A stretch of DNA of 57,296 bases, taken from the NCBI GenBank assembly GCA_024636505.1, contig JAGXGY010000035.1, positions 1 through 57,296 of the forward strand, in the 5' to 3' direction. This DNA is from Methylobacter sp. GTDB lineage: Bacteria > Pseudomonadota > Gammaproteobacteria > Methylococcales > Methylomonadaceae. Positions 26,868-48,246 of this stretch are shown piece after piece. Position 1 is the stretch's first letter. Every line of letters starts with the position of its first letter. Under the pieces are notes generated by a model, which was not told where the DNA came from, ran no database searches, and was given only the letters and a program-made list of their open reading frames with translations. A program made the position numbers and the translations under genes.

Positions 26868-28346
26868 CTACATGGTTGCTGGCAAGGGGCGGAATCTTTC
26901 AACCAGTGCAGCTGCTACATTCTCCATATGTTGAGCCCTTGATCCTTTGATCAAAATCGTTTCATCGCCTTTGAGCTCCCGGTTTAATACTTCAATCAAA
27001 TCATTTTGGCTATCAAAGAAATCAGCTCCTTTGCCAAATGCCTTTACCGTATGCCGGGCATCAGAACCAATAGCAAGGAGGCGCACGACACCATTTAATT
27101 TAATTAGCCTCCCCATTTCTTCATGTATTTTCGGACTGTCAGGTCCCAGTTCGCCAAAAGCCCCTAAAACCAGCCAATGCTCACCTGCGCAGCTCGCCAA
27201 TACATCCAACCCGGCTTTTAACGAGGCTGAATTGGCGTTATAAGTATCATCTATTACGATATTCCCTAGACGGCTTACTAACGGCTGCAATCGCCCCGTG
27301 ACCGGCTTTACACTTTCCAGTCCCTGTTTAATCTGTTGCAGATCGATGTCCAGCGCCAGGCATGCGGCAGTCGCTGCCAAGGCGTTGACGACGTTATGCC
27401 GACCTGCCAACTTCAGCTTTACCCTCAACTCGCCTGCCACGGTCACTAAGTCAAAGGCAGTAGCAAACTCATGATCAATAATTTCTGTTTTAACAAAACG
27501 TGCCGTTACCGGCGCCGACCGATCCAACCCAAACGATATGACTTTTCTTGTCCCCGCTACCGATTTCCAGTAGTCAAAGTAGATATCATCGTGATTAAGA
27601 ACTGCCACGCCGTCCTGTTTAAGCGTCTGGATTATTTCTCCTTTGGCTTTGGCAACACCGTCGATACTGCCGAAACCTTCAATATGCGCCGGTCCCACAT
27701 TGCTAATAATCGCAACATCAGCCTGCACATATTTACTGGTATATTCAATTTCGCCCGGATGGTTTGCACCCATCTCGATGACTGCATAGCGGTGTTGTTC
27801 GTTCAAACGCAATAACGTTAACGGTACTCCGATGTCATTATTCAAGTTACCTTGAGTAAACAAGGTATTGCCATTGACGCTTAATATTGCCGCCACCATC
27901 TCCTTGACCGTGGTCTTACCGTTACTGCCGGTAATACCGACGACCGCCAGGGATGGTGACCGCGACTGCTCCCGGCAGTCGTCGGCATTTCCTCTATCCA
28001 TGGAGGTCAGAAGTGTCGCCATTGGTAGGGAACCCATGCGACCGACCGACACGGTCGCTTTCTTTCGCCAAGCGCCTGCCAACTCGGCCAAGGCCAAGTG
28101 CGTATCGTCAACCACGATATGCGGTATTGTTACTGTAGCGCCCTTATGAACAATGGCTGCCGAAGCGCCGCCGTGTTCCGCCTTATCTACAAATTCATTG
28201 CCGTCAAAATTACGGCCTTTAATCGCAACATACAATTGTCCCGGCTTTATCCCTCTGGTATCTATACTGACCGATGAAACCACAACATCTTCACCGATCA
28301 ATTTTCCCTGCACACACGCTGCAATTTCACTTAGGGTCATATTCAT
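26868..28346 (-). CDS. murF: UDP-MurNAc-tripeptide--D-Ala-D-Ala ligase MurF, with an in-frame repeat insertion
   Basis: Mur ligase that adds D-Ala-D-Ala. Seen: an N-terminal substrate domain (about 1-96), the ATP site [14 protein letters not shown] (138-150), [15 protein letters not shown], and [19 protein letters not shown]. At 492 residues it is about 40 longer than E. coli MurF (452). Residues about 98-132 match no Mur ligase sequence that I know and are encoded by the palindromic element at 27942-28053, in the linker just before the central domain. All catalytic motifs remain, so the enzyme is probably active. The start overlaps the murE stop as ATGA. Confidence 0.96.
27942..28053 (-). 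repeat. Palindromic element inside murF
   Basis: On the coding strand the element starts with GGTCGCATGGGTTCCCTACC (hairpin-like) followed by CGACACTTC, then CTCCATGG. A perfect hairpin CGACTGC-CGGGA-GCAGTCG comes next, and CACCATCCCTGGCGGTCG ends it. The first 34 nt differ from the ftsI copy at about 4 positions. It is read in a different frame from the ftsI copy, yet has no stop. Confidence 0.8.
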
Positions 28347-29869
28347 TGTTGAGCCTTACGCCTGCCTAAAGCCTCCATTGCTGCCCGTCTATCGCTAAAT
28401 AGTTGCTGTACACCGTTGATTTCCTGATATTGTTCATGGCCTTTGCCCGCAATTACAATGCAATCATTTTTAGCCGCATTTGTTACTGCTTTTTGTATCG
28501 CCTGCTCTCTGTTTTGTATAACATCAACCTTTCCGGATCTGCATCCTGCCAGAATATCGTTAACTATATCTAATCCGTTTTCGTAACGCGGGTTGTCATC
28601 GGTAATAACCACATGATCCGCCCAATGCTCGGCAATTTTTCCCATTTGGGGTCGTTTACCCTTATCTCTATTGCCGCCACAGCCGAAAACCACCCATAAA
28701 TCCTGCTTGCAATGTTTACGCAAACTGCGTAAAACCTTATCCAAGGCATCCGGCGTATGCGCATAATCCACAAAAACCAATGGATCATTCTCGGTCCCAA
28801 TTCGCTCCATACGGCCATCAATCGGCTTTATATCGGCCAGTTTCTTAGCGGCCTCATCGAATGAAATACCCACTGCCAGCATTACGGTCAAAGCAGCCAG
28901 GGCATTCTCTACATTAAAATCACCGAACAGCGGGACTTTAATTTGCTGAATCCCAGTCAGCCAGTACACATCAAATTCAATTCCGTCGGCGTTATGCACG
29001 ATATTTTCAGCCCTTACACACTCACCTGAATGGGCTATTTTCCCTTTGATACTAAACTGCCACAGCTGTACTGATTGAGGACAGGCTGCAATAATTTTCT
29101 TAGCGTATTCATCATCCAGATTGACTACAACAAAAGCTAATCCCGGCATTTTCAATAACGCCAGCTTCGCCTGCACGTAAGCCTCCATGGTTCCGTGATA
29201 ATCCAGATGATCGCGGCTGATATTGGTAAATACCGCGCCTTTAAACGTCACGCCATTGACACGGCCTTGCTCCAGACCATGCGAGGAAACCTCCATCGCC
29301 ACCGTGCGTTTTTTGCCCGTTAATAATTCAGCCAGTATTTTCTGAATTGCCAGGGCATCGGGCGTGGTATTCAAGGTTTTATTGAGCTTGCCCCATTCGC
29401 CCCAGCCAAGCGTTCCTATAATTCCGCAGTCATCCAGCATCTGCCCCAAAAACTGACTACAAGAGGTTTTGCCATTGGTGCCGGTAATGCCGATAACATT
29501 CATAAACCGGGACGGATCGCCATAAAAACGCGCGGCCAATTCGCCTAACTTCAAACCCAGATTTTCCACTGCGATCATCTGCACCAAGTTAGGGACACTG
29601 CGCCGCAATGTATCTGCCAGCTGCCAACCATCCCCGGCCGGGTCAAAAATAACCGCATTTGCTCCATTATCAATAGCTTGCTCAACATGCATCAAGCCAT
29701 GCTGTTTAGCACCCGCTAAAGCAATAAAGACATCGCCGCCAACCACAGCCCGACTATCCAAAACCAATCCAGTGATAGACATATCGCTTTGATCCTGAAA
29801 CACGGTAAATCCATACAATAAATCCTTCAGCAGAGATACTGTGCGCCCTGACTCTGTTGTCGTCGGCAT
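28343..29869 (-). CDS. murE: UDP-MurNAc-L-Ala-D-Glu--meso-DAP ligase MurE
   Basis: Mur ligase that adds meso-diaminopimelate. The specificity motif DDNPRYE is the DNPR signature for meso-DAP. ATP site GITGTNGKTSCSQFLG; SSHGLEQGRVNGV; carbamylated-lysine region TNISRDHLDYHGTMEAY. It has 508 residues. It starts 1 nt after the ftsI stop and overlaps murF. Confidence 0.97.
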   Translation of the reverse strand: MPTTTESGRTVSLLKDLLYGFTVFQDQSDMSITGLVLDSRAVVGGDVFIALAGAKQHGLMHVEQAIDNGANAVIFDPAGDGWQLADTLRRSVPNLVQMIAVENLGLKLGELAARFYGDPSRFMNVIGITGTNGKTSCSQFLGQMLDDCGIIGTLGWGEWGKLNKTLNTTPDALAIQKILAELLTGKKRTVAMEVSSHGLEQGRVNGVTFKGAVFTNISRDHLDYHGTMEAYVQAKLALLKMPGLAFVVVNLDDEYAKKIIAACPQSVQLWQFSIKGKIAHSGECVRAENIVHNADGIEFDVYWLTGIQQIKVPLFGDFNVENALAALTVMLAVGISFDEAAKKLADIKPIDGRMERIGTENDPLVFVDYAHTPDALDKVLRSLRKHCKQDLWVVFGCGGNRDKGKRPQMGKIAEHWADHVVITDDNPRYENGLDIVNDILAGCRSGKVDVIQNREQAIQKAVTNAAKNDCIVIAGKGHEQYQEINGVQQLFSDRRAAMEALGRRKAQQ

Positions 29870-29870
29870 A

Positions 29871-31649
29871 TTAAGATCCTTGCCGCGTCAGCAAGATAGG
29901 CATATTGTCCTGTTGGTCTGGAGCAACCTCCAACACCCTCAAGGCTCCCGCCATCACCTTGGAAAATACTGGAGCGGAAACTATCCCACCGTAATATTTT
30001 CCCGCAGAAGGCTCATCAACCATGACGACGATAATCAATCGCGGATTGTTTGCCGGCGCCATGCCGGCAAACACAGAAAAATAACTTTTCTCGGTATAGC
30101 CCCGCGCACCGGCTTTTTTTACCGTGCCGGTTTTACCTGCGGCGCTGTAGCCATCCACTCTGGCCTCGTAAGCAGTGCCATCTTTCATCAGCACCGTTTC
30201 CATCATGGCTCTGACTCTCTTGGCAGTGTTGGCCGAAAACACCCGTTGCGCGTCAATATCTTCATCTCGCTTTAACAAGCTAATCGAATGCAAAATACCG
30301 TCATCCGCTAACGCGGTATAGGCTCTTGCTAATTGTAATGCGGATGTACTCACGCCGTAACCGAATGACAAAGTTGCCGTCTCAAAATCGCTCCGGCGTT
30401 GATAATCAAGCAAGCTTCCACTGGCTTCCCCGGGAAAACCGGAACCGGCCGCAACACCAAAACCCAACCTATGGTAAGCGCTCCAAAAATATTCCGGCGG
30501 CATAGTTAATGCAATCTGGCTTACCGCAACATTGCTGGATTTTTTCAGCACGCCGGTCAAATCCAGCGTCCCGTAATTATGCACATCCCTAACGACATGC
30601 CTGCCGATCGGGTAGACGCCGTGGGTTTCAAATAGGTCATTTGGCTTGATATAATCGCCATCCAAAGCAGCGGCAACAACAAATGGCTTGATCGTCGATC
30701 CCGGCTCAAATACATCGGTTATCGACCTATTTCTGTACAGACTCTCCTTTAAATTTTTTCTGGTATTGGGATTAAATGATGGCTGATTTACCGCCGCCAG
30801 AACTTCCCCGCTCTTTGCATCCAATACCACTAATACCGCCGATTTTGCCTTGTGAAGATTAAATGCCAACTGCAACTCCCGATACGCCAGGTATTGGATG
30901 CGCTGATCGATACTTAACTCCAGATTCCGGCCTGCAATCGGCTCTTTAATGTTTTCTACGTCCTCAATAATTCGACGCTGTCCATCCCGGATAACCCGTT
31001 TGCTGCCAGGAATGCCTTTTAATAATTTTTCATAGCCCGATTCAAGTCCCGCCTGACCAATATCATCAATATTGGTGAATCCGATTAAATGCGCGGAAAC
31101 CTCTCCTGCCGGATAAAAGCGTTTGAATTCCCGCTCAAAATAAATACCCACAAGCTTCAATGCTTTTACCCGATCGGCAACCATCGGATTCACTTGGCGA
31201 GCAATATAAACAAACTGCCTATGCCCATCAGCGTTAATAAGCTCAGTAGCCTTCCCCTTCGGCAAATTCAACAGCTTTTCCATTTGCCTGATTTCGTTTT
31301 CTTTTCCCGGCTGAATCTGTCGCGGATTCATCCAAATAGACTCGACCGGCGTACTGATTGCCAGCGGCGCACCATTCCGATCTTTTATCATGCCTCGATA
31401 GGCTTCCACCTTCACATCACTAACATGACGCATGTCACCCTGATCTTTAAGAAACTGCTTATTCAGCACCTGTAAATCGACAGCCCGACCCACTAATACC
31501 GCCATACAAACCATTATAAAAACGACGACTATCTTCCTTCGACCGCCATGGATGGTGGAAGTGTCGTAATCGGTAGGGAACCGATGCGACCGGCCTGAAA
31601 AAGTGTATTCCGACTCTGTTGTCTTATTTTTGCCTTGAAAATGTATCAT
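29871..31649 (-). CDS. ftsI: Septal transpeptidase FtsI (PBP3) with an element-encoded cytoplasmic tail
   Basis: Septal peptidoglycan transpeptidase. A cytoplasmic tail (1-39), one membrane helix (about 40-57), the dimerisation domain, and the transpeptidase with the active Ser in EPGSTIKPF, KSSNVAVSQ and AGKTGTVKKAG. It has 592 residues (E. coli 588). Residues about 19-37 of the tail are encoded by the palindromic element at 31541-31595 and do not resemble other FtsI tails. It begins directly after the ftsL stop. Confidence 0.97.
   Translation of the reverse strand: MIHFQGKNKTTESEYTFSGRSHRFPTDYDTSTIHGGRRKIVVVFIMVCMAVLVGRAVDLQVLNKQFLKDQGDMRHVSDVKVEAYRGMIKDRNGAPLAISTPVESIWMNPRQIQPGKENEIRQMEKLLNLPKGKATELINADGHRQFVYIARQVNPMVADRVKALKLVGIYFEREFKRFYPAGEVSAHLIGFTNIDDIGQAGLESGYEKLLKGIPGSKRVIRDGQRRIIEDVENIKEPIAGRNLELSIDQRIQYLAYRELQLAFNLHKAKSAVLVVLDAKSGEVLAAVNQPSFNPNTRKNLKESLYRNRSITDVFEPGSTIKPFVVAAALDGDYIKPNDLFETHGVYPIGRHVVRDVHNYGTLDLTGVLKKSSNVAVSQIALTMPPEYFWSAYHRLGFGVAAGSGFPGEASGSLLDYQRRSDFETATLSFGYGVSTSALQLARAYTALADDGILHSISLLKRDEDIDAQRVFSANTAKRVRAMMETVLMKDGTAYEARVDGYSAAGKTGTVKKAGARGYTEKSYFSVFAGMAPANNPRLIIVVMVDEPSAGKYYGGIVSAPVFSKVMAGALRVLEVAPDQQDNMPILLTRQGS
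31541..31595 (-). repeat. Palindromic element inside ftsI
   Basis: On the coding strand GGTCGCATCGGTTCCCTACC continues as GATTACGACACTTC and then CACCATCCATGGCGGTC. It holds a perfect 6-bp stem hairpin ATCGGT-TCCCT-ACCGAT. It is the short form of the murF element, without the internal CTGC-CGGGA-GCAG hairpin. Confidence 0.8.
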
Positions 31650-31922
31650 TTACAGCTTGATATAAATAATTTTTTCCCGTAACGGCATAACCAGCTTTAA
31701 TTGCTCACGCGCCACCTGTTCTACCCGATTCTGTTCCGCCAAGGTTGTCAACTCCAATTGCAGCTGCCCCCACTCCACTTCATACTGATCCAGCGCTCTT
31801 TCCTGCTTTTGAATATCGATAAAAATTAATCGCGACTGATATTTACTGTAAATGACTGCCAGAGCAGATACCAACAACAGCAAGGCCAGTCCGCCTAATC
31901 CTAAATAGCGACTTATTGCCAC
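31650..31922 (-). CDS. ftsL: Cell division protein FtsL
   Basis: Small bitopic divisome protein that forms a complex with FtsB and FtsQ. 90 residues: a membrane helix (about 8-25, GLGGLALLLLVSALAVIY) followed by a coiled coil (KQERALDQYEVEWGQLQLELTTLAEQ). The start is GTG, placed directly after the rsmH stop. Position between rsmH and ftsI confirms the identity despite low conservation. Confidence 0.92.
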   Translation of the reverse strand: MAISRYLGLGGLALLLLVSALAVIYSKYQSRLIFIDIQKQERALDQYEVEWGQLQLELTTLAEQNRVEQVAREQLKLVMPLREKIIYIKL

Positions 31923-32849
31923 TTACACCCTCTCAGCCACTCGCATGATTGCGCTTCGTGCCCTGGTATTTTGAGTCACTTCCTGCCGCCCTGCTTTCAA
32001 GGCTTTAGCTGTTTTCTTCAAAATACCCTTGGCTATATCGATTTCTTTAATCGGCAACTTGCCCGGATTGTATTTCGCGCCAGACTCCGCCCTGATAAAG
32101 CGTTTGACGATGCGATCTTCCAGTGAATGAAAAGAGATGACCACCAAGCGCCCACCGGGCTTCAAAATCCGGGCGGACTGTTGCAAAACAGCCTTTAACT
32201 CATCCAGCTCGTTATTGATTTCAATACGAATCGCTTGAAAACTGCGGGTTGCCGGGTGCTTATGCTTCTCTCTTATCGGTATGACATCTTCAATTAGCTT
32301 GGCCAGCTCCCTGGTGGTTGTAATTGGCGCCTCAACTCTTTTTTCAATAATCGCGTGAGCTATGCGCCGTGCAAACCGCTCCTCACCATATTCAAATAAA
32401 ACTTTTATCAGTTCTTTTTCGTCAACGCTGGCCAGCCATTGTTCAGCTGTAACACCTGCATTGCCATCCATGCGCATATCCAATGGCCCATCGCGCAAAA
32501 AGCTAAAGCCTCTTTCCGGATTGTCCAATTGAGGCGATGACACACCCAGGTCCATCAAAATACCGTCGATTTTTCCAGCTAAACCTTCACGGCTAATGAT
32601 GTTTTCCAGCTCAGAAAAATGCGTATGCTTCAGCTCAAAGCGTTTATCTTTCAGCATGGCCTGCGAATAATCGGCGTTAATCGCATCCCAGTCTCGATCA
32701 AACGCCAGCAAACGGCCCGATAAACCCAGTAAATTTAAAATTCCTTGACTATGTCCGCCCCGACCGAACGTACAATCCAAATAAATACCATCTTCTTTAA
32801 TAGCCAACTGTTGCAAAGCTTCTGCAAACATAACGGGCAAATGTTCCAC
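31923..32849 (-). CDS. rsmH: 16S rRNA m4C1402 methyltransferase RsmH (MraW)
   Basis: SAM-dependent methyltransferase acting on 16S rRNA position C1402. Seen: HLPVMFAEAL, DCTFGRGGHSQGIL (SAM loop), GILMDLGVSSPQLDNPERGFSF, and VVISFHSLEDRIVKRFI. It has 308 residues with a GTG start at 32849, 8 nt after GGGAG. A TTG two codons upstream lies too close to that site. It pairs functionally with rsmI, which modifies the same nucleotide. Confidence 0.96.
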   Translation of the reverse strand: MEHLPVMFAEALQQLAIKEDGIYLDCTFGRGGHSQGILNLLGLSGRLLAFDRDWDAINADYSQAMLKDKRFELKHTHFSELENIISREGLAGKIDGILMDLGVSSPQLDNPERGFSFLRDGPLDMRMDGNAGVTAEQWLASVDEKELIKVLFEYGEERFARRIAHAIIEKRVEAPITTTRELAKLIEDVIPIREKHKHPATRSFQAIRIEINNELDELKAVLQQSARILKPGGRLVVISFHSLEDRIVKRFIRAESGAKYNPGKLPIKEIDIAKGILKKTAKALKAGRQEVTQNTRARSAIMRVAERV

Positions 32850-32865
32850 TAACAAATCTCCCGTA

Positions 32866-33333
32866 TTAAAAGGATAATGAACCTAAGTCTTCCAGGCCTT
32901 CATTATCATCACTATTCAGCCATTCAGCTTCCTTTAATCCCCAGGCTTGTTCATTCCAGAGTTCAAATTTATTGAGTTGACCGACCAAGATAATTTTCTT
33001 GTCTACATGCGCAAATGTTCTCAACTTTTCCGGCAGCAACAAGCGCCCCTGCCCATCCATCTCGCATTCAGATGCATTACCGATAACAAACCGCCTTAAC
33101 TTCCCGGCCATTTTATTTAACGTAGGTAATTTACTGATCGTTTGCTCAAGCTTTTCCCACTCAGGCACCGGATAAAGCCATAGACAACCATTTTCTCCAA
33201 CACACCGTTCATTGACCGCGACTGTCACCACCATCTGACACTCGCAACAATCCTGTAATTCCTCCCGATAACGGGTAGGAATGGCAACACGCCCCTTACT
33301 GTCTAGATTGATTGAACTAATGCCCCGAAACAA
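32866..33333 (-). CDS. mraZ: Transcriptional regulator MraZ
   Basis: DNA-binding protein that represses the mra promoter and forms ring-shaped oligomers. Two AbrB-like halves are seen: FRGISSINLDSKGRVAIPTRYRE (start) and ECEMDGQGRLLLPEKLRTFA (middle). It has 155 residues. The start is TTG with GGGG about 7 nt upstream. It heads the dcw cluster and has MraZ boxes upstream. Confidence 0.96.
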   Translation of the reverse strand: MFRGISSINLDSKGRVAIPTRYREELQDCCECQMVVTVAVNERCVGENGCLWLYPVPEWEKLEQTISKLPTLNKMAGKLRRFVIGNASECEMDGQGRLLLPEKLRTFAHVDKKIILVGQLNKFELWNEQAWGLKEAEWLNSDDNEGLEDLGSLSF

Positions 33334-33360
33334 GATTTACCCCAAACGCCCTAAAAATCC

Positions 33361-33419
33361 TATTTTTCCCACTTTTTCCCACTTATACCCACTATAGTTT
33401 TCTAATAACTCCTAGTCAA
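33361..33419 (-). promoter_or_regulatory. Pmra promoter and three MraZ boxes
   Basis: On the minus strand TTGACT (33414-33419), a 17-bp spacer and TATAGT (33391-33396) form a near-perfect sigma-70 promoter. Downstream are three TGGG boxes at a 10-bp period (33361-33391), matching the known MraZ operator of TGGGN repeats. This should drive and autoregulate the whole dcw cluster. Confidence 0.85.
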
Positions 33420-33737
33420 GAATGATTTCATTTAGACTTCTTTCTTTTTCGACAACGACTTACACGACAGCTAGGACAAACTATAACCATATAAAATATT
33501 GAAAAATAATTCGCATTTTTATCAATAAATTATGCAACCTTAATGAGAAAATACTTTAACTATAAAGCCGCCGGAAATCTCCAGATTTTTTGATAAGAAA
33601 TGAGAGCTGGAACCAAAATACCGCTACGTGTAGTAACTTGGTGATTTTTACGCGTTCAGAGAGACAGCAATGACTGCATAGATGTACAGACGGTTAGCGG
33701 TTAGCGGATACCGAGCAGAAATACTCGAAAAAGGAAA
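33420..33737 (-). other. AT-rich spacer between the mra promoter and rnpB
   Basis: About 318 bp with no gene that I can support. The part nearest rnpB is T-rich on the minus strand (from about 33722 to 33740) and probably holds the rnpB terminator. A short direct repeat GGTTAGC is seen near 33693-33707. Confidence 0.5.
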
Positions 33738-34090
33738 GAAAGAGTCGGCCTGTAAGCCGGGTTCTGTCGAGAACAGTCATTCATCTAGGCTGCAAGTCAC
33801 CCTGCAACTCAAGCAATCTACCCAGGAACCGCGCGGGCCACGCGTCTGTCCCTCTATTTGATCTTGCTCCGGGTGGGGTTTACCATGCCACTTCTGTTAC
33901 CAGTTGCGCGGTGCGCTCTTACCGCACCTTTTCACCCTTACCGATCACCTAAGTGACAGGCGGTATATTTTCTGCGGCACTTTCCGTAGGCTCACGCCTC
34001 CCAGGCGTTACCTGGCACCCTGCCCAATGGAGCCCGGACTTTCCTCCATCTTATCTCGCGATAAAACAGCGACTGCTCAGCCGACTCTTT
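33738..34090 (-). ncRNA. rnpB: RNase P RNA, class A
   Basis: Catalytic RNA of RNase P that matures tRNA 5' ends. On the minus strand the RNA has the conserved core GAGGAAAGTCCGGGCTCC, GGCAGGGTGCCAGGTAACG with CCTGGGAGGCGTGAG, GGTAAGGGTGAAA, and AGAACCCGGCTTACAGGCCG at the 3' end. The ends pair (AAAGAGTCGGC with GCCGACTCTTT). It lies between rsmI and mraZ, a common gammaproteobacterial location. TATACT at 34100-34105 is a likely -10. Confidence 0.96.
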
Positions 34091-34450
34091 CAACGGAGAA
34101 GTATATCATATATATTCATATTAACATGATACGCACATCGCTTTTTTATCAGAACCAGCCCGATTTCAATATTCAAATTACTATCAAATTGCTATATTAA
34201 TCGACATTCCGCATATTCATGCCAATTCATTGAAATTAAATGATATTATTCTTTACTCAATGGATATTAAATGCTTATCTTGCAGATATACGCAACACCG
34301 AATTGAGCTTTTAAATGCCGTTCTTAAGCGCTTTTACACTTACATAACATTGATTATAAACGATTTTATTTTTATACATGAGACGATCCCGGCTGTTTTA
34401 TTTGCAAAAACCGGATCAGGAATAAACCCTGATTAACCTTAACGGAAACA
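34091..34450 (-). other. Spacer with rnpB promoter and possible rsmI terminator
   Basis: No gene in this 360-bp AT-rich spacer. It holds the rnpB -10 (34100-34105). A hairpin ATCAGG-GTTTATT-CCTGAT on the minus strand (34415-34433) is followed by CCGG and a T5 run (34406-34410); it is a plausible terminator for rsmI. The ORF on the plus strand across rnpB and this region is not credible. Confidence 0.5.
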
Positions 34451-35311
34451 CTAAGCCTCTTCGGCTTTTTCCATATCCAACGCCGCTTGATACAGCAGTT
34501 TTTTTCTGACTCCGGTAATGTCAACAGCCAGTGCAACAGCGGTTTTAATAGAGCACTCACCCAGCAACACGCGCAGTATTTTTTCCTGCTCAAACGTAAT
34601 AACCTGATCTTTTTTGTCGATGGTAGCACCATCGATAATCACCACAAACTCGCCTCGCCTCATGTTAGCATCTTGTTCAACCAGTTTAAGCGCCTCAGCC
34701 AAACTGGTTTTGATAATGGTTTCGTGCAACTTAGTTAGCTCTCTGGCTATCACGATCTGCCGATCTAGCGGCAATATTTCGGCCATATCCTGCAAGGATG
34801 CCAAAATCCGATGACTGGACTCATAAAATACCCAGGTGGTCGGACGCAATAAGCGCTCGCTAAAAAAAGCTTTTCTGGCCGATGAGGTTCTCGGCGAAAA
34901 ACCTTCAAACGCGAACTGGGTGACCGGTAATCCTGCCGCAGACAAGGCTGCAATTAATGCACAAGCGCCCGGCACCGGCACCACATCAACACCCGCTTCT
35001 TTGACCATTTTTACCAGCGGCATGCCGGGGTCGCTTAACAGCGGCGTTCCTGCATCGGAAACCAGTGCAATCGATAAGCCCTCACGCAGCTTTTCCAGCA
35101 GCCCGACCGCAGCTTTGTCTTCATTATGCTGATGCAACGAAATCAGTTTATTGCTGATGCCGTAATGCTGCAGCAACATTTTCACATGCCGGGTATCTTC
35201 GGCAGCAATCAAATCAACCTGCTTTAATACTTCAACTGCCCTGAACGTAATATCCGCTAAATTACCTATCGGCGTGGCAACAACGTATAATTTGCCGTAT
35301 TCACTTGACAT
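34451..35311 (-). CDS. rsmI: 16S rRNA 2'-O-ribose C1402 methyltransferase RsmI
   Basis: SAM-dependent tetrapyrrole-methylase family enzyme that methylates the ribose of C1402 in 16S rRNA. Seen: YVVATPIGNLADITFRAVEVL, EDTRHVKMLL, VSDAGTPLLSDPG, VPVPGACALIAALS and YESSHRI. It has 286 residues from MSSEYGK. It is divergent from lpoA with only 31 bp between the two starts, so their promoters must overlap. Confidence 0.97.
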   Translation of the reverse strand: MSSEYGKLYVVATPIGNLADITFRAVEVLKQVDLIAAEDTRHVKMLLQHYGISNKLISLHQHNEDKAAVGLLEKLREGLSIALVSDAGTPLLSDPGMPLVKMVKEAGVDVVPVPGACALIAALSAAGLPVTQFAFEGFSPRTSSARKAFFSERLLRPTTWVFYESSHRILASLQDMAEILPLDRQIVIARELTKLHETIIKTSLAEALKLVEQDANMRRGEFVVIIDGATIDKKDQVITFEQEKILRVLLGECSIKTAVALAVDITGVRKKLLYQAALDMEKAEEA

Positions 35312-35342
35312 TCGATACACTCACTTGAAATCCTCAAAAAAA

Positions 35343-37220: not shown

Positions 37221-37572
37221 ACTCAAGACAAAAGCGGCGCATTTAATTCGCGGTGAAAGCGCTGAAGAACAAGCCCATAACTTTCTGATCAATAAAGGAC
37301 TTAAACCGGTCAGTCGAAATTTTCGCTGCAAACAGGGCGAACTCGATCTCATCATGACCGACAAGCAGTCGCTGGTTATTGTTGAAGTCCGATTTCGTAA
37401 AACCGATAAATACGGCAGCGCGGCTGAAAGCATCACCCGCGCCAAACAATCGCGCATTATCGCAGCAACGCATATATACCTTGCCTCCCGAAAAACCGAC
37501 CGCCCGATTCGATTCGACGTGATCGCCATTTCCGGCAATGGCAACATCGACTGGATACAAAATGCATTTTAA
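37207..37572 (+). CDS. yraN: UPF0102 protein YraN
   Basis: Small nuclease-like protein of the UPF0102 family, function not established. Conserved parts: GESAEEQAHNFLINKGLKPVSRNFRCKQGELDLIM and VIVEVRFRKTDKYGSAAESI, a PD-(D/E)xK-like arrangement (E-L-D and V-E-V-R). It has 121 residues from the ATG at 37207, which overlaps the lpoA stop by 14 nt. A longer start at 37153 would overlap lpoA by 68 nt. Confidence 0.92.
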   Translation: MLFTKLKTKAAHLIRGESAEEQAHNFLINKGLKPVSRNFRCKQGELDLIMTDKQSLVIVEVRFRKTDKYGSAAESITRAKQSRIIAATHIYLASRKTDRPIRFDVIAISGNGNIDWIQNAF

Positions 37573-37646
37573 CCACCGCAAATCCTCGAGCTTTTGAACT
37601 TAAAAAGTGTCGCAGGCGAGTACGATAGCCTTTATAATTCTTCGTC

Positions 37647-38234: not shown

Positions 38235-38294
38235 CGACGACTTGAACGGATATTTTCTGATCAGATCCTACGTAAAACAAACCACTAGAGTTTT

Positions 38295-39701: not shown

Positions 39702-39702
39702 C

Positions 39703-40182
39703 TTATCGATACAACCCGGCGCTGCCGTCCATGTCGCCGGTCTGGTTATACAACAAGGGCCGCCCCTGATTGAGTGCTACGGCAGCAACCACCTTACACA
39801 CGGCGATTTTATGATCTCCGGCATCGGCATAATGGCTCACCTGACAGTCAAAGAAGACCAGGCTTTCGGATAAAACCGGCGCGCCGCTTTCGGCTGTCTG
39901 CCATTGAAATCCTGTCATCTTGTCTTTCGCCGATCGGCCAAAATGCTCCGCTAGCGCATACTGATCCTGTGCCAAGACATTAACTGTGCAAATGCCGCTT
40001 TCCTGCAACAATTGGTAGGAATAATGCTTGGGATTAATGCTGATCGCCAGCATTAAAGGGTCGAAAGACACCTGCATCACCCAGGCCGCAGTAAAGGCAT
40101 TTTGATGCTCCCCAACACCGACGCCGATCACATAGACGCCGTGACTGATCTGTTGAAGCAATGTTTCGGCATGTTCAATCAT
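39703..40182 (-). CDS. Flavin reductase-like domain protein
   Basis: A 159-residue protein of the flavin reductase/FMN-binding split-barrel family. Seen: GVYVIGVGVGEHQNAFTAAWVMQVSFDPLMLAISINPKHYS (typical FMN-binding region) and ICTVNVLAQDQ, which match flavin reductases of two-component systems. It may reduce FMN or act as a flavin-binding oxidoreductase; the partner is not known. The start at MIEHAET is 1 nt after the nadC stop, so they are probably co-transcribed. Confidence 0.8.
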   Translation of the reverse strand: MIEHAETLLQQISHGVYVIGVGVGEHQNAFTAAWVMQVSFDPLMLAISINPKHYSYQLLQESGICTVNVLAQDQYALAEHFGRSAKDKMTGFQWQTAESGAPVLSESLVFFDCQVSHYADAGDHKIAVCKVVAAVALNQGRPLLYNQTGDMDGSAGLYR

Positions 40183-40183
40183 G

Positions 40184-41014
40184 TTAATGCACCAGCTTAA
40201 TGCGCATCGATAAATCGACCGCCTTGACATGCTTGGTTAAGGCGCCAATCGAAATAAAATCAACCCCGGTTTCGGCAATCGTCCTGATAGTGTCCAGGCC
40301 GATATTACCGGAAGCCTCAAGTTCTATGGCTCCTGCATTCAATTTTACCGCCTCAGCCATATCTTCAAGACTGAAATTATCCAACATGATCCGGTCAGGC
40401 CGGGCGGCAACAGCTTCCAGAAATTCGGGCATCGATTCAACCTCCACTTCCACAGGAACCGACGTCAAATCACGCGCAGAGCGGATTGCCTGAGCAATAG
40501 ATCCTGCCGCTATGATATGATTTTCTTTAATCAAGACCCCGTCATATAAGCCGATCCGATGGTTATAACAACCGCCGCAGGCTACTGCATATTTTTGTGC
40601 ATTTCTAAGGCCCGGAATGGTTTTTCGGGTATCCAGCACCTTGCAGTCCGTGCCGGAAACCGCATCGGCATATTGCCTGGCAACCGTAGCTGTCGCAGAC
40701 AAGGTTTGCAGCAAATTCAGCGCGGTACGCTCACCGGTCAGTAAACCTCTAGCCGAACCACTGAGCTTGCATAAAAGCGTATCTTTACCGACAGACTCGC
40801 CTTCAGCCGCCAGCCAGTCGATATTAATGCTTGCATCCAGAGATTTAAATACTGCATCAAACCAGGCCTGACCGCAGAGCACCATGTCTTCACGGGTAAT
40901 TACATCGGCTTCAGCCATCATCGATTCAGGAATAATCGCGGCAGTTATATCCCCGGAACCAATATCTTCTTCGAGGAAAGATTTTATTTCCACCCTGTTC
41001 AATTGTTCTGTCAT
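40184..41014 (-). CDS. nadC: Quinolinate phosphoribosyltransferase NadC
   Basis: De novo NAD synthesis enzyme that converts quinolinate and PRPP to nicotinic acid mononucleotide. Seen: EEDIGSGDITAAIIP, ERTALNLLQTLSATAT, LDTRKTIPGLRNAQKYAVACGG, NHRIGLYDGVLIKENHI and IMLDNFSLEDM. It has 276 residues. Start overlaps the upstream DUF1631 gene as ATGA. Confidence 0.97.
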   Translation of the reverse strand: MTEQLNRVEIKSFLEEDIGSGDITAAIIPESMMAEADVITREDMVLCGQAWFDAVFKSLDASINIDWLAAEGESVGKDTLLCKLSGSARGLLTGERTALNLLQTLSATATVARQYADAVSGTDCKVLDTRKTIPGLRNAQKYAVACGGCYNHRIGLYDGVLIKENHIIAAGSIAQAIRSARDLTSVPVEVEVESMPEFLEAVAARPDRIMLDNFSLEDMAEAVKLNAGAIELEASGNIGLDTIRTIAETGVDFISIGALTKHVKAVDLSMRIKLVH

Positions 41015-43107
41015 AAACTCATTAATTCTAAAAGTACGCGTTCGGTAATTGTTTTTTGATCAAGTGTAACAATAGCGGCTTGCCCGTGGCGCAGCCTTTC
41101 TGCCAACTCATCTAGTTGAACCTCGAACATTTTTACTCCGTTTTTATCAACAATAAGCATAGCGGCTGTCTCGACATCTTTCCAAAGTAATTTACCCCAT
41201 TGCGTTGCTGATGCAGAAAAAAATGCCACCCAGCTATTTACAGCAAGATTTTTAGCCCGCTCCGAGCTCTCATCAGCTAATGTTACCGCTTTTATTTTTT
41301 CGCCCTTAATCCCTTGCTCGCCGGTGTCGCCCCTTATTTTTTTAATTTCTTTTTTATCCATTAAGATAATGTGCCATACGGCAAGATCTTTAAAAAAACG
41401 CGCCTGTGCCGCTTTATCGTATGAAATTTGCTTTAAACCTTTTCTTAATGCTGCAATTAATCCGGGCAACAATTTTAATATCTGTTTTCTTTGATAATTA
41501 TCTGTCGGCGGCATAACGCTTATAATCAGCTGATTCATAGCCTGCACCGTTTTTTCCCACTGCTCCGGCAACTCATTTCTACCTGTATAGGCGTCTAGCA
41601 ATACATCCGACCAAACATCATGCAAAAACTCGACTATTGCTGCGGGCACCACTTTACCCGTCAAACTGTTTTCAATCGCTACAGCAATAATCTTTCTGTT
41701 CGCCCTCAATGCCCGTTCATTTATCATCAACTGCTTGGTATTTTCTTCGATATTCCGGCTACGCTGCCGTTGTTTGCGTAAATACAGCGAAAACTCGCTG
41801 GCTTCCGCGGTCCAAGCGGAAAGTTCAAAACCGCTACTCTGGGTTATTTTTTTAACGGCGCTGGCAATACGCTGTTGAATCAGCCTACCCTCGTCCTGCT
41901 CAGCATTTAAAAACTTTCCGGCGGCAAACACATCATCGAGTAACTGCCTAGCCGGATTTTCCGGATTGAAAAAAATCCCGTATCGCCCTAAAGAGCTCGC
42001 AGCCAAAGGAATTTCCAGCTGCAAAACAGCCATTTTTACACTATCTTGAAGCGATTCGTCTTTGTTTATTTCGCTAAAAATCAACGCCACCAGATCCAGT
42101 ACATCCTCATCCTGTTTGGCCAGCATTTTGACATCAACACTAAAGCTGAGTTCCTTCAGTTTTTCAAATACTTGCCATTTTAACGGCGGCGGCTTTTCAT
42201 CTGTGTCTGTATCATCATTAAACTGCTGAAGCACTTGCAATGCATTTTTTATTTCAAAATGCTCATAAAACCCATGCCCGGTAGCCGGAATTAAATCATA
42301 AACAGAGGGGAAATGAGCCCGCCGCCATAATTCAAGCTTCTGCTGTAGCCGGATAAACTCGGCACTAACCTGCTCTGCACCCTCAGAAGCAGGTTCGGCA
42401 TTCTCTTTAATCTCATCGACCAGGTACAACGGTACAGCAATCGAGGTTCCGCTATACTGATCTATCGACACTATTTCCGGGGTCGCCTCAACCTCGCACT
42501 GCTTAAGCAGCTCCCGATAAATAAACCCCAATTGATTAAAGACAATCAGGTCAAATGTTTTATATAATGCAATTCGTCCATCTGTATTCAATTTCAGCGG
42601 CTTAACAACCTCAACCAAGGCGCGAACCAGTTTTTCCGGCTGAATGGCAATCAGTTTATTAAGGCTGATTAATTCTTCATAAAATAAATGCTCGCACTGC
42701 CGAATAATGACAGCAATGGCATGATTTTCCTGTACCGCATCGGCACTGATCAGCGAGATATTAGAAAAATCCAACTGTACTTTTGATTTCCGGGGGCTGT
42801 CGTCGAAAAACTCATTCACTTTTAGCAAATAATCTTGTTTAAGATCCCTGCGAACTGAACGAATATATTCCAGTAATTTCATATACTGTTCTTTATCCAT
42901 TTTTTCGCGATTCTTGCCTAACTGCAAACCGAATTCAAGATCAATACGCATACAGCAATCATCGACCGCCTGTTCAAGATACTGAAAAAAAATCGGCTTA
43001 ACTTTGCTTAAAATCATAATCTTTTTCACCTTACCCACACCTGATTTTACTTGCTGCCGGTTACCCATAACAACATATCTGCTGTCAATTAAAGATAAAT
43101 TAGTCAT
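41011..43107 (-). CDS. DUF1631-like protein
   Basis: A large 698-residue cytoplasmic protein of uncertain function. The stretch LKLNTDGRIALYKTFDLIVFNQLGFIYRELLKQCE and overall layout resemble DUF1631 proteins of gammaproteobacteria; this is my best match rather than a firm one. It is mostly helical and charged with no membrane segment or signal peptide. A coiled region follows near RKQRQRSRNIEENTKQLMINERALRANRKI. It couples to nadC by ATGA, but a metabolic link is not evident. Confidence 0.6.
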   Translation of the reverse strand: MTNLSLIDSRYVVMGNRQQVKSGVGKVKKIMILSKVKPIFFQYLEQAVDDCCMRIDLEFGLQLGKNREKMDKEQYMKLLEYIRSVRRDLKQDYLLKVNEFFDDSPRKSKVQLDFSNISLISADAVQENHAIAVIIRQCEHLFYEELISLNKLIAIQPEKLVRALVEVVKPLKLNTDGRIALYKTFDLIVFNQLGFIYRELLKQCEVEATPEIVSIDQYSGTSIAVPLYLVDEIKENAEPASEGAEQVSAEFIRLQQKLELWRRAHFPSVYDLIPATGHGFYEHFEIKNALQVLQQFNDDTDTDEKPPPLKWQVFEKLKELSFSVDVKMLAKQDEDVLDLVALIFSEINKDESLQDSVKMAVLQLEIPLAASSLGRYGIFFNPENPARQLLDDVFAAGKFLNAEQDEGRLIQQRIASAVKKITQSSGFELSAWTAEASEFSLYLRKQRQRSRNIEENTKQLMINERALRANRKIIAVAIENSLTGKVVPAAIVEFLHDVWSDVLLDAYTGRNELPEQWEKTVQAMNQLIISVMPPTDNYQRKQILKLLPGLIAALRKGLKQISYDKAAQARFFKDLAVWHIILMDKKEIKKIRGDTGEQGIKGEKIKAVTLADESSERAKNLAVNSWVAFFSASATQWGKLLWKDVETAAMLIVDKNGVKMFEVQLDELAERLRHGQAAIVTLDQKTITERVLLELMSL

Positions 43108-43226
43108 AGCCTGGTACTCCGATAGTATTTTGACTAATAATAGGCATATTCAGCTTAGATACTGTGCTTTATTTCCGTTTTTTACTTCTTTAATTTACCT
43201 ATGTTTCAAACCAGCAAGGAAATTTG

Positions 43227-43769
43227 ATGAAAATAGACAGGCACTGGTTAACTGACATTAGCCGAAGCCCTACACCCAACTTTGACGACCGCTCCGACCC
43301 GGAGGACATTTCATTGCTGGTTATCCACTGCATCAGCCTCCCGCCCGGCGAATTCGGCAATCCATATATAGACCAGCTATTTTGTAATCAACTCGATCCT
43401 GATAAGCACCCTTACTTTAAACATGTCTATCAACTTACTGTCTCAGCGCATCTGCTGATTAAGCGCGATGGAAACTGCGTTCAATACGTACCCTTTAATA
43501 AGCGCGCTTGGCATGCAGGCAAGTCGATATTTGAAGGTCGGCAACGATGCAATGATTTTTCTATTGGTATAGAACTTGAAGGCACCGAATTCGTCGATTA
43601 TACCGAGCAGCAATATCGACAACTCGCCGCAATAACTCAGGCCTTGCTTGAAGCGTATCCAAAGTTATCGCCACAACGCATTATCGGGCACAGTGATATT
43701 GCACCTGGACGAAAAACTGATCCAGGCGCATCGTTTGACTGGCAAAAGCTTTTAGGGTTATTAAAGTAA
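43227..43769 (+). CDS. ampD: 1,6-anhydro-N-acetylmuramyl-L-alanine amidase AmpD
   Basis: Cytosolic zinc amidase of peptidoglycan recycling that splits anhydro-muropeptides. Zinc ligands lie in LLVIHCISLP and IIGHSDIAPGRKTDPG; AWHAGKS is also typical. It has 180 residues. The ATG at 43227 has AGGA about 7 nt upstream; a TTG one codon earlier is not used. Loss of AmpD in other bacteria derepresses AmpC, but no ampR/ampC is seen here. Confidence 0.96.
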   Translation: MKIDRHWLTDISRSPTPNFDDRSDPEDISLLVIHCISLPPGEFGNPYIDQLFCNQLDPDKHPYFKHVYQLTVSAHLLIKRDGNCVQYVPFNKRAWHAGKSIFEGRQRCNDFSIGIELEGTEFVDYTEQQYRQLAAITQALLEAYPKLSPQRIIGHSDIAPGRKTDPGASFDWQKLLGLLK

Positions 43770-43796
43770 CCGGAAAAATAAAACCCCGATTAGACT

Positions 43797-43865
43797 GATT
43801 AACGCTGATAATCCAATAAAAATCTTACGCATCATAAATTATCTGCGTTATCAGCGTTCCATTTT
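43797..43865 (+). repeat. Dispersed imperfect-palindrome repeat, copy 1
   Basis: GATTAACGCTGATAATCCAA and following sequence match, in inverted orientation, the repeat at 54755-54832 with about 12 differences in 69 positions. It lies between ampD and lspA. The sequence holds inverted AACGCTGATAA / TTATCAGCGTT arms. No transposase gene is present, so it is MITE-like or REP-like. Confidence 0.75.
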
Positions 43866-43887
43866 CCTAACCGCTGAGTAGTCGTCT

Positions 43888-44382
43888 CTACAATACATCC
43901 GACTCTTTCGAATGCACCAAGCCGAACGATTCCGCCAGCATTAACATCACCCCCAAGGTAATGGCAGAATCGGCAACATTGAAAGCGGGCCAATGCCAAG
44001 TACCGTAATAAACATCGAGAAAGTCGATCACGTAGCCGTAAGCCAAGCGGTCAATCAAATTGCCGATAGCGCCGCCCAGAATCAGCGACAAAGCGACCGC
44101 CAGCAGGGTCTCGTGTTGTTTCAGCCGCGCCAGCCAAACCGCGATGACGGCGCTGATCACCAGTGCCAAACCGGCAAAAAACCAACGTTGCCAGCCGCCG
44201 GCTTCGCTTAAAAAACTGAACGCCGCGCCGGTATTGTGTACGTAAGTCAGCCTAAAAAACGGCATAATCTCAATGGATTCATACAGCTGCATCGAACCGG
44301 CGATGGCAAGTTTACTGCCTTGATCCAGAATAACCGCCAGCAGCGACAGCCATAACCATTTCAACATCACGGCATTACGCAT
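43888..44382 (-). CDS. lspA: Lipoprotein signal peptidase LspA
   Basis: Membrane aspartyl protease that removes lipoprotein signal peptides after lipidation. Four membrane segments; catalytic Asp residues in [14 protein letters not shown] and [22 protein letters not shown] near the second helix. It has 164 residues. The start overlaps the ileS stop by 8 nt (ATGCGTAA). Needed for LpoA, BamD and the Lpp-like protein in this window. Confidence 0.96.
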
Positions 44383-47206
44383 AAAGCCTGCGCTCGCCTT
44401 CGCCCGCTACGTTTTCCACGCAACGACCGCAGAGTTCAGGGTGTTCTGCTGTGGCACCTACATCAGCTTGCTGATGCCAGCAACGCACACATTTTTTATG
44501 CTTGGAAACGGCAATTTTTAATTGAATACCTTCAATTTCTGTCTGAATGGCTTCTGTCGGGGCATGGTGTTCTGCCGTGATCGAAGCATTGGACGCAATA
44601 AAGATAAAGTGCAACTCACTCGCCAACTGATTTAAAACATGAAAATATTCGGCACTACAATACAGTTCAATATCCGCGTTCAGCGACGCGCCAATATCGC
44701 CTTTGGCGCGACTCTTTTCCAGTTCCTTGCCGACAGCGCCGCGAACGCTCATGATTTTTTTCCAGAATTCGCGGTTCAAAACAGCATCGGCATCCAGTGT
44801 AGCCAAGCCCTGATACCAAGTTTCCAAAAATACCGACTCGCTACGTTGGCCCGGCAGATAGTGCCAGATTTCATCGGCGGTATAGCTGATAATCGGCGCC
44901 AGCCAGCGGGTCAAGGCTTCAAGTACATGATACATCGCAGTTTGCGCCGAACGCCGCGCCAATCCGTCGGCTTTGGCGGTATATTGACGATCTTTAATGA
45001 TGTCCAGATAAAAACCGCCCAAATCGATCACGCAAAAATGATGCACTTTCTGATAAATAAGCTGGAATTGGTAAGTCTCGTAAGCGGCTTTGACTTCTTC
45101 CTGCAACAGGAATGCCCGGTCAACCACCCAGCGATCCAGCGCCAACAAGTCCTTGGTTTCGACCATATCCTGTGCCGGATCGAAATCGTTTAGATTGGAC
45201 AGCAAAAAACGCGCGGTATTTCTTAAGCGCCGGTAACCGTCGGAGGTGCGCTCCAAAATCTCATCGGACACGCGCATTTCGCCACGGTAATCGGTTGCGG
45301 CTATCCATAAGCGCAACACATCGGCACCGAGATTTTTCATCACCGATTGCGGCGGCACCACGTTGCCTTTCGATTTGGACATTTTTTCGCCGTTTTTATC
45401 GACGGTGAAACCATGCGTCAACACCGCTTTGTAAGGCGCTACGCCATTCATTGCCACCGAAGCCAACAATGACGACTGGAACCAGCCGCGATGCTGGTCG
45501 GAACCTTCCAAATATAAATCAGCCGGAAAATGCAGCTGTTCGCGCCGTTCCAAAACTGCCGCATGGGTGACGCCGGAATCGAACCAAACATCCAATGTGT
45601 CGGTCATTTTGTCGTAGTGCGCGACTTCATCGCCCAGCAATTCAGCAGCATCCAGTTCAAACCAGGCTTCGATGCCCTGTTGTTCGATACGCTGCGCCAC
45701 CTGTTCAACCAATTCAGCGGTGCGCGGATGCAATTCGCCACTTTCTTTATGGACGAAAAAGGTAATCGGCACGCCCCAGGTACGCTGGCGGGAAATACAC
45801 CAGTCAGGACGGCCTTCCATCATGCTTTCGATACGCGCCTGCCCCCATTCGGGAATCCAGGCCACGCGCTTGACTTCAGCCAGCGCCTGTTCGCGCAGCC
45901 CGTTTTTGTTCATCGAAATGAACCATTGCGGCGTGGCGCGGAAAATAATCGGGGTTTTGTGCCGCCAGCAATGCGGATAGCTGTGCAAGATGGCGATGTG
46001 ATGCACCAGTTTGCCGCGCTGTTCTAGCACTTCGATGACATGAGCATTGGCGTTGAACACATGCTCACCGGCAAAAAGTTCAGTATTGGGCAGAAACACG
46101 CCGTCGTTGCCGACTGGATTATCAACCGGCAAGCCGTATTTCAAGCCGACCACATAATCGTCCTGGCCGTGTCCCGGCGCGGTATGCACCGCGCCGGTAC
46201 CCGCATCCGTAGTAACATGATCGCCCAAAATAATCGGCACTTGCCGGTCGTAGAAAGGATGTTGCAATAATTGATACTCCAACTCAGAGCCTTTGCAGTA
46301 AGCAATCACATGGTAGTTTTCGATGTCGTAACGCAGCATCGCATCTTTCAGCAGCGCTTCGGCAACGACCAGACGTTCTTGTTTGCCGTCTTTTTCGCAT
46401 TGCACCACCGCATATTCCAGTTCGGGGTTTAACGCCACGCCCTGATTAGCAGGCAAGGTCCACGGCGTGGTTGTCCAGATCACCACCGATAGCGGCCCGC
46501 TGCCGTCATGTTCAGGCACATGGTGGCACTGCGCCAAAAATCCGGCTTCATCGACCACCTGAAAACGCACATCAACCGCCGGCGAATGCTTGTCTTCGTA
46601 CTCGACTTCCGCTTCGGCCAGCGCCGAACCGCAATCGGTACACCAATGCACCGGTTTTGCGCCTTTAGTGATATGACCGTTTTGGCTGATTTTGCCCAGT
46701 GCGCGCACGATGTCGGCTTCAAAAGCGAAATCCATGGTTAAATACGGCTGTTCCCAATCGCCTAAAATGCCCAGCCGGATAAAAGCCTCTTTTTGTATGT
46801 TGACTTGTTTTCCGGCATATTCGCGGCAGGCTTTACGGAATACGGCGGGAGAAACCTTAACCCCGGCCTTGCCGATTTTTTTCTCGACCTGCAATTCAAT
46901 CGGCAAGCCGTGACAATCCCAGCCCGGCACATAAGGCGCATCAAAACCGCTTAACGATTTGGATTTAATAATGATGTCTTTCAACACTTTATTGACCGCA
47001 TGGCCGATATGGATCTCGCCGTTGGCATAAGGCGGGCCGTCATGCAGGACAAACTTGGGGCGTCCGGCAAATTCCTGCCTGATTTTGCGATACAAATCGG
47101 CATCGTTCCATTTTTTCAGCCGCTCCGGCTCCCGTTGAGCCAGATTGCCTTTCATCGGAAACGCCGTGTTGGGTAAATTCAGTGTTTTTTTATAATCCAT
47201 TGTCAT
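44375..47206 (-). CDS. ileS: Isoleucyl-tRNA synthetase
   Basis: Class I aminoacyl-tRNA synthetase that charges tRNA-Ile and edits valine. HIGH signature [21 protein letters not shown] in [12 protein letters not shown], and a C-terminal zinc finger ([11 protein letters not shown] to LCGRCVENV). 943 residues from the ATG at 47206; the second ATG at 47200 (MDYKK) aligns a little better with E. coli and either may be used. It lies 5 nt after the ribF stop. Confidence 0.97.
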
Positions 47207-47211
47207 AACAA

Positions 47212-48246
47212 TTAATCTCGGCAAAAATCTTTATCACCAGGGATGGTGTGTATGTTGCCAGCCGGTAAGGAACCGGCGCAGCGATCACCAGGGATGGTGT
47301 GTCTGTTGCAGGCACGCAGAGAAGAAAGCGCAGCTTCAGCCTTCGCCACGTCTTTTACAATCTGTGTTTTAAGGTCGTCTAGCGACTGAAAACGCATTTC
47401 ATCCCTGATTTTTTGTTTGAAATGCACTTCCACATAGCGCCCGTAAATCTCTCTATCAAAATCAAATAAATACACTTCCAATATGGCTTTTTCCCCACCA
47501 TCAACGGTGGGCCGGGTGCCTACATTGGCAACGCCTTCAAATTCGCGGTCATCAATACCGGTCATGGTCACTGCAAATACGCCGTTCACCGGAGTATTTT
47601 TTCTAAACATTTGTATATTGGCGGTGGGATAGCCGATGGTTCTGCCGCGTTTGTCGCCATGCGCAACACGTCCGCACACAGAATAACAACAGCCGAGCAG
47701 CTTTTCAGCCAACGCCAAATCGCCATCGCCCAGCGCATCCCTGATCAAGGTACTACTGACGCGAAGACCGTCTATTTGATAAGAACCGGTGTCTTCAACA
47801 TCAAAACCGAACAGCTTGCCCTTGTCCTTGAGCATGGCGAAATTTCCGCGCCGGGCCTTGCCAAAATGAAAGTCATCGCCGACCACCAGATGCCTTACAT
47901 TCAATTTTTTCACTAAAATATCTTCAATAAACCGCTCGGCATCGCAGTCGGCAAAATTTTGATTAAATCGTAATATCAATACCTCATCAACGGGTAATTT
48001 GGAAAATCCGAGTACTTTTTCCCGCAAACGCATCAACCGTGACGGCGCATTTTCTCCCAGAAAATACTCCAGCGGCTGCGGCTCAAAAATCAGAACGACA
48101 ACAGGCAAGCCTAATGCCTCGCCTCGTTCAGCCAGTTTGCTTATCACCGCTCTATGCCCTAAATGCAGACCGTCAAAATTACCAATCGTCAGTACACAGC
48201 CCGATTTTAAAGGTTTTAAATGAGGTAATCCTCTAATGAGACGCAT
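47212..48246 (-). CDS. ribF: Bifunctional riboflavin kinase/FMN adenylyltransferase RibF
   Basis: Makes FMN and FAD from riboflavin. The N-terminal adenylyltransferase has [17 protein letters not shown], and the C-terminal riboflavin kinase has [16 protein letters not shown] and [14 protein letters not shown]. At 344 residues it is about 30 longer than E. coli RibF (313). The extra C-terminal residues ([18 protein letters not shown] and on) come from the repeat at 47233-47309. The ribF-ileS-lspA order is typical of gammaproteobacteria. Confidence 0.95.
47233..47309 (-). repeat. Repeat element at the ribF 3' end
   Basis: Two copies of a 26-bp unit (containing CACACCATCCCTGGTGAT) at 47233-47258 and 47284-47309 flank a hairpin GCCGGT-TCCTT-ACCGGC. 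The CACCA-TCCC-TGGTG stem and the CGGTTCC-N-TACCG core match the murF and ftsI elements. The unit is 51 bp, so the frame stays open. Confidence 0.75.

Follow-up and report, generated by a model that had tools for sequence, protein, structure and literature searches.

The stretch of Methylobacter sp. DNA analysed here (57,296 nucleotides (nt), contig JAGXGY010000035.1 of assembly GCA_024636505.1, referred to throughout as the window) raises the question of how palindromic DNA can come to lie within the coding sequences of murF, ftsI and ribF and leave these essential genes readable. An earlier note had described related hairpin units in the three genes and had attributed them to a modular palindromic element, similar to the palindromic elements of Rickettsia, that entered each gene in frame. 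That observation is real and is larger than was described, and the interpretation placed upon it is supported in most respects. The explanation that we consider probable is that these units are copies of a non-autonomous mobile palindrome of 51 nt with two hairpins, which is targeted to a C, is tolerated when translated and behaves much as the Rickettsia palindromic elements do. The window is contig C58 of a 2.83 Mb metagenome-assembled genome that is 86.7% complete, and the closest named records to its FtsI are those of Methylobacter (L061, L098 and L119, 90-91%), from which the host is taken to belong to this genus of methanotrophs.

The 51-nt consensus of the unit is GACYGCCANGGATGGNGGAAGTGTCGCAATCGGTAGGGAACCGATGCGACC, which folds as two hairpins, and in the unit profile the start is GACY and the end is GCGACC. 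Length is nearly invariant, with 113 of 118 near-full distinct units (taken from 194 nhmmer hits) being 51 nt, three being 54 nt and two being 52 nt. The fold of the ftsI unit as DNA has a z of -4.05 on the + strand, where 0/200 shuffles are as good, and of -2.80 on the - strand, where 3/200 are. Pairing is conserved between copies, indeed two-sided changes that preserve it occur in 53 cells among 103 distinct units as against a mean of 9.9 and a maximum of 20 over 300 shuffles, and in an earlier set of 22 sequences they occur in 22 cells as against 7.1 in shuffles.

Units are present in murF, ftsI and ribF at the places first proposed, with ends that differ slightly (27942-28043, 31541-31591 and 47233-47309). 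None of the three segments contains a stop, and the translations show the catalytic motifs to be intact, these being GSNGKTT in MurF, STIK, SSN and KTG in FtsI, and HLGH and PTAN in RibF. Entry in frame, which had been suggested for all three genes, holds for murF and ftsI, but the copy in ribF forms a C-terminal tail and is not internal, and is shifted or stopped in relatives. Similarly the suggestion that ftsI is read in one frame and murF and ribF in another is true for only part of the unit; judged by eye, ribF is read as murF is at the CGGTTCC..TACCG hairpin but as ftsI is at the CACCATCC segment, the spacing of the ribF-type unit being different. The murF element adds 34 residues in the MurF alignment, and the alignment to E. 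coli MurF 1gg4 ends at residue 95 and restarts at 134, which places the insert at the passage from domain 1 to domain 2. Among the matches listed, this MurF is the only one of G000.

Further copies of the element are found across this genome. A covariance model built from 22 copies (R1) yields 55 matches at E <= 1 (32 at E <= 0.01), which together mark 37 sites and are a minimum, having come from the scoring of 150 out of 1393 first-look candidates; with the murF element as query, blastn gives 13 places at E <= 3e-4, murF itself and the ftsI copy included. Twenty-seven of the 37 sites lie wholly within stop-to-stop open reading frames (ORFs) of at least 200 codons, and a 197-codon ORF with a redoxin domain holds one more. 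Eight of these 27 start no more than 35 codons from the upstream stop and, ftsI apart, may precede the true start codon, the start position of ftsI being proven by relatives. A Pfam family was identified in 27 of the 30 carrier proteins scanned. The carriers, whose names we in part presume from their domains, include RapA, valyl-tRNA synthetase, an FtsY-like SRP54-type GTPase (two sites), a TilS-like PP-loop protein, ComEC, squalene-hopene cyclase, a carbon-nitrogen hydrolase, 4-HFC-P synthase, a PBP1A-like protein, FliK, a CcmH-like protein and the redoxin, among others. The site falls inside one Pfam envelope in three carriers, namely the carbon-nitrogen hydrolase, ComEC (its DUF4131 domain) and the redoxin, and the encoded peptide varies with the frame in which the unit is read.

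Table 1. Units of the 51-nt palindrome in the window and the genes that carry them.
Feature	Position	Strand	Remarks
murF composite element, 102 nt	27942..28043	+	51-nt unit split by a second, inverted 51-nt unit; gene on - strand
Nested inverted 51-nt unit in murF, CTGC-TCCCG-GCAG hairpin	27958..28008	-	R1 match, E 3.8e-8
ftsI 51-nt unit, N-terminal tail	31541..31591	+	Best R1 match of the genome, E 5.7e-16; gene on - strand; gap-0 empty sites in relatives
ribF-type divergent 51-nt unit, 3' end of ribF	47233..47283	+	R1 match 47232-47283, E 0.0034; gene on - strand
ribF half unit (first hairpin and spacer), abutting the full unit	47284..47309	+	96% identity to 47233-47258
murF, 492 amino acids	26868..28346	-	Insert in linker between Mur ligase domains 1 and 2
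ftsI, 592 amino acids	29871..31649	-	
ribF, 344 amino acids	47212..48246	-	

A sign of mobility is that the same sites are empty in other species. Comparison of stretches from named Methylobacter records shows the units in ftsI, murE, site 73 of murF (murF-73) and L064:1264 to be exactly missing elsewhere, with a gap of 0 where the filled site has 51 or 54 nt. For the 102-nt element in murF the difference, of 34 residues, was taken from the MurF protein alignment, in which 28 of the 29 rows of relatives are without the insert, three of the 28 repeating one species. In Methylobacter the base before the unit (-1) is a C in all 95 units with a non-unit left flank (18 others were dropped), and likewise in 59 of 59 distinct sites; the commonest target is TTAC (9/59 against a background of 1.4%, p 1.5e-7) and the wider motif YTNC accounts for 26/59 (background 13.5%, p 1e-8), with no consensus seen in the right flank of the Methylobacter units. 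Since C is already present at that base of the empty site in 21 of 27 cases (printed gap-0 rows, each site counted once), the C predates the insertion. The gap-0 sites show no target duplication and no repeated flank, although a 1-bp duplication of the C is possible as the unit ends in C too. A classical miniature inverted-repeat transposable element of the DDE type was considered and rejected, the several-base target duplication that it would leave being absent. The C rule is established for Methylobacter only.

From this we would propose that a unit inserts directly 3' of a C, preferably that which ends YTNC and most often that of TTAC, with no visible target duplication and no other net change. 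A fixed 51 nt with no other net change would therefore add 17 codons in whichever frame it meets, and those copies that land in permissive linkers or tails with a stop-free frame would survive and be translated as nearly neutral extra peptides. Elements would also enter elements, as the second unit inverted within the first in murF suggests, together with the other hairpin modules within units of other species.

The element is by no means confined to the one genome. R1 matches at E <= 0.01 are found in 21 of 22 other Methylobacter genomes and in 7 of 14 genomes from other genera of the family, and in none of 24 genomes from other families of the order, these counts being minima with at most 97 candidates scored per genome. 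The sole congener with no R1 match, G004, also has no Y1 transposase match, and G015, G017 and G018 are likewise low in copies, with three matches apiece. A draw across the class gave matches at E <= 1e-5 in 15 of 368 other genomes (16 candidates scored in each), and 20 loci from nine of the 15 all show the GACCnCCAnGGAnGG skeleton, some in tandem, with three lying within ORFs of 324, 378 and 459 codons. Related units occur in other gammaproteobacteria, therefore the Methylobacter form is one branch of something wider. The loci in other gammaproteobacterial genomes (L355-L374) have units of 50-52 nt; in G422 the unit is inside a larger repeat in the eight of nine matches fetched, and G183 and G297 have tandem arrays.

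Within the genus, inserts are present in FtsI, MurE and MurF of the M. tundripaludum isolate SV96 and in FtsI and MurF of the isolate OWC-G53F, and as two isolate genomes carry them they are no artefact of assembly. The metagenome-assembled genome E6 has a related MurF insert at the same place as the window, and two units in its ftsI that are read in two different frames; other relatives have inserts elsewhere in MurF. At murF-73 of L062 and L066 the loop of the unit's second hairpin holds a 96-nt module made up of other small hairpins, giving totals of 198 and 147 nt. Hairpin modules like this one adjoin units in the window's own genome (L003 and L017).

Filled and empty sites are patchily arranged. 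On a tree with 25 tips, made from eight genes of the window in the neighbourhood of murF and ftsI (the names of the other genes being presumed from their order), the minimum number of changes is six for ftsI, four for murF-73 and three for murE. The ftsI insert is common to 11 of the 25 species at one position and is somewhat less patchy than shuffled labels (six changes against a mean of 8.5, 58/1000 being as low), and the patchiness of murE, murF-73 and murF-101 is equal to that of shuffled labels. Such patchy sites could arise either by scarless departure of units or by their return to the same nucleotide. That the patchiness at identical nucleotides is due to precise, scarless excision and not to repeated insertion is an addition to our explanation that we can readily entertain, leaning slightly against it. 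In its favour are the six or more changes at the ftsI site, and the murE site, which is empty in E6 and filled in its sister C15 and SV96 (support 100) and is reduced to a 33-nt remnant in oryzKRF1. Against it, the sequences of the units do not show shared ancestry of copies at one site, indeed inheritance and repeated insertion there cannot be told apart by nearest-neighbour distances, among which those of the LacPav murE unit carry no meaning, this unit having been cut two bases out of register; independent insertion at a preferred site and gene exchange between species are alternatives, and the tree is weak at several deep nodes (support below 50). A bolder account still would have the 51-nt element move by single-strand peel-and-paste to YTNC, scarless both in and out, as a reversible 17-codon insert in essential genes of a free-living genus, with nesting building larger peptides and the Methylobacter form being a branch of a gammaproteobacterial superfamily; taken in its entirety this is tentative and we regard it as doubtful.

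As to how the units might move, PMC5934647 describes that IS608 inserts exactly 3' of TTAC, that TTAC stays in the left flank and that the donor is resealed upon excision, and also that the hairpins of IS200/IS605 insertion sequences are recognised as single strands. Insertion 3' of a short target without duplication is shared by the Methylobacter units, the possible 1-bp duplication of C aside, and by this analogy movement may proceed by single-strand, IS200/IS605-like (HUH Y1) chemistry acting in trans. The likeness to IS608 is one of rule and not of sequence, and unlike IS200/IS605 elements the unit is itself without a gene, none of the Y1 loci searched yielded a tnpA gene with matching ends and TTAC makes up only 9/59 of the targets.

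A number of observations weigh against the explanation preferred here, the first of which concern the transposase. Searching 61 genomes with Pfam PF01797 (Y1) found Y1 genes in 55, with 104 Y1 matches in the genus, and whole and half units were looked for at 52 Y1 loci (39 of them in the genus, representing ~37 distinct genes, and 13 in other genera, with two genes covered twice). No transposase gene flanked by units was found at the 52 loci, tnpB-only partners not having been looked for; the first 40 loci have none at E <= 0.1, the weak hits there being a single one of ribF type (E 0.12) and some to half units (E 0.77 or above), and the unit search of control loci found units in 29-30 of 30. 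The genome with the most listed copies, G011 (85), has one Y1 match, and four of five loci with genes resembling REP-associated tyrosine transposases (RAYT, REP being repetitive extragenic palindromic) carry their own, different palindromes of GTAG/GTGG type. Moreover tandem blocks of 153 and 204 nt are without a clean empty site (gaps of 9, 10, 19 and -6), and outside the genus the -1 base is C in 10/20 and T in 10/20, eight of the T from one genome. In the 22-sequence set two of five pairing measures are not above shuffles, namely pairs with two-sided change (5 against 3.9, 134/500 as high) and pair types (13 against 12.3, 224/500 as high). Lastly, among loci gathered by R1 from several genomes, 50/94 units are located deep within ORFs of 200 codons or more, as against 68-81% of random 51-nt stretches from the same loci and the window, so units are depleted in genes and not enriched, genes being tolerated and mildly avoided. 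The 50 units use the frames 18, 15, 6, 6, 3 and 2 times, where one site may count from more than one species, and the idea that five open frames of six betray adaptation to coding was rejected, 37% of dinucleotide shuffles being equal. A unit-like copy beside a truncated Y1 gene (L377), met among the 12 loci that followed the first 40, was also rejected as evidence, being nested in another repeat and on one side only.

It could be argued that the units are ordinary REP/RAYT elements of the GTAG or CGTC superfamily that fall in genes by chance, an alternative we consider unlikely. REPs are likewise small palindromes, often grouped and in some cases intragenic; according to PMC3733652, intragenic GTAG and CGTC REPs occur singly or grouped in several species and encode 20-30 amino acids, or up to 82 when clustered. 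Y1 genes are, as seen above, common, and copy number in the genus correlates with Y1 count, weakly and not to be leaned upon (Spearman 0.42, p 0.047, n=23). The Methylobacter unit resembles intragenic REPs in being a small palindrome in genes, however it differs in being of fixed 51-nt length with two hairpins and in its ends, GACY...GCGACC: there is no GTAG or GTRG end tag in the 113 units of 51 nt, and its profile has no CGTC/TGTC/CCTC end tag with a CCA-like tail of the kind set out in PMC3733652. Furthermore the palindromes at four of the five RAYT-like loci are others, tagged GTAG/GTGG, and no RAYT gene is flanked by the unit among the Y1 genes examined (~37 of the 104 genus matches). The palindromes at L244, L245, L247 and L248 surround RAYT-like Methylobacter genes, and L250 has a different inverted repeat.

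Returning to the 51-nt mobile palindrome as something tolerated in translation, the ftsI insert has a ratio of nonsynonymous to synonymous change (pN/pS) of 0.81, as against 0.12 in the codons after it and 0.71 in those before it (8/11 filled species), so that its peptide drifts almost neutrally with the frame kept. All the ftsI, murE and murF inserts compared are multiples of three and stop-free across species (51, 54, 102, 147 and 198 nt and a 33-nt remnant), and the decayed murE remnant of oryzKRF1 is still in frame, which speaks for translation. We would anticipate on these grounds that the peptides are translated and harmless. That the inserts are instead removed before or during translation, as bypassed hairpins or spliced RNA, leaving the proteins unchanged, would suit the strong hairpins and the nearly neutral evolution of the peptides, and the ribF tail, which in some relatives is shifted or stopped so that the frame is not universally kept, limits the argument from frame; we hold it to be very unlikely nonetheless, as a bypassed element need not keep a stop-free frame in the way that the ftsI, murE and murF inserts do. 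The notion that the inserts are normal lineage-specific parts of proteins, alike through convergence, can draw on the single position of the ftsI insert in 11/25 tree species, but is refuted in the main and scarcely credible, given the same DNA unit in unrelated genes, in both orientations, in different frames and outside ORFs, and the clean empty sites.

The 51-nt palindrome may be compared with other repeats of small size. The small dispersed repeats of cyanobacteria are reportedly (Elhai et al. 2008) very small mobile repeats with nested insertions, and would differ from the present unit in length and sequence. Palindromic elements in Rickettsia and palindromic repeats in Wolbachia are, according to PMC2229807, PMC2996958 and PMC10969869, dispersed and in frame within housekeeping genes, typically at unstructured places of the protein. 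A palindromic repeat in frame within protein genes is what is seen here also, and the description of a coding-tolerant mobile repeat resembling the Rickettsia elements is fair as regards behaviour, given the further copies and the empty sites in relatives. The Rickettsia elements are ~105-150 nt and belong to intracellular hosts, whereas the Methylobacter unit is a 51-nt double hairpin of methanotrophs, whose empty sites are exact and which follows a C in every Methylobacter copy examined; the two are likened by behaviour and not by sequence. Intragenic palindromes outside Rickettsia have already been published, in PMC3733652 and PMC2229807, and intragenic REPs are known from the former, so that what appears to be new is a mobile repeat of fixed length with two hairpins, C-targeted in Methylobacter and supplying 17 codons per unit. 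A literature search, with most subscription journals and all preprints outside its scope, gave no account of the repeat in Methylobacter among the papers listed, a search with stretches of the repeat itself listed nothing related judging by title, and a word search of the Methylobacter genome-collection paper PMC12810054 met no mention of repeats, palindromes or mobile elements. Until now, palindromes in frame have for the most part been treated as a peculiarity of Rickettsia and other intracellular bacteria, and here the same outcome is found across a genus of methanotrophs with cultured isolates, exact empty sites, a fixed length and a sharp target rule. Strains that can be grown therefore bring two old questions within reach of experiment, namely by what means such palindromes move and whether new protein sequence really does arise from them.

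Some smaller observations can be added. The CTGCTCCCGGCAG hairpin of the murF element does recur elsewhere in the window as had been noted, three times at 7782-7920; these belong to three tandem 63-nt repeats (7750-7938) that share this hairpin with the nested murF unit and lie within an ORF at 7402-7953 (-). The 51-nt consensus had no match by blastn among plasmids and phages at E <= 1e-3, and an exact unit, found by two exact patterns, lies among small ORFs of one IMG/VR viral contig (L354:4460-4510). Rfam gave 0 matches at E <= 1 over 27800-31700, and over the whole window the gathering score was reached by RNase P only, the RNA gene of which is at 33737-34088 (-), near the ftsI cluster.

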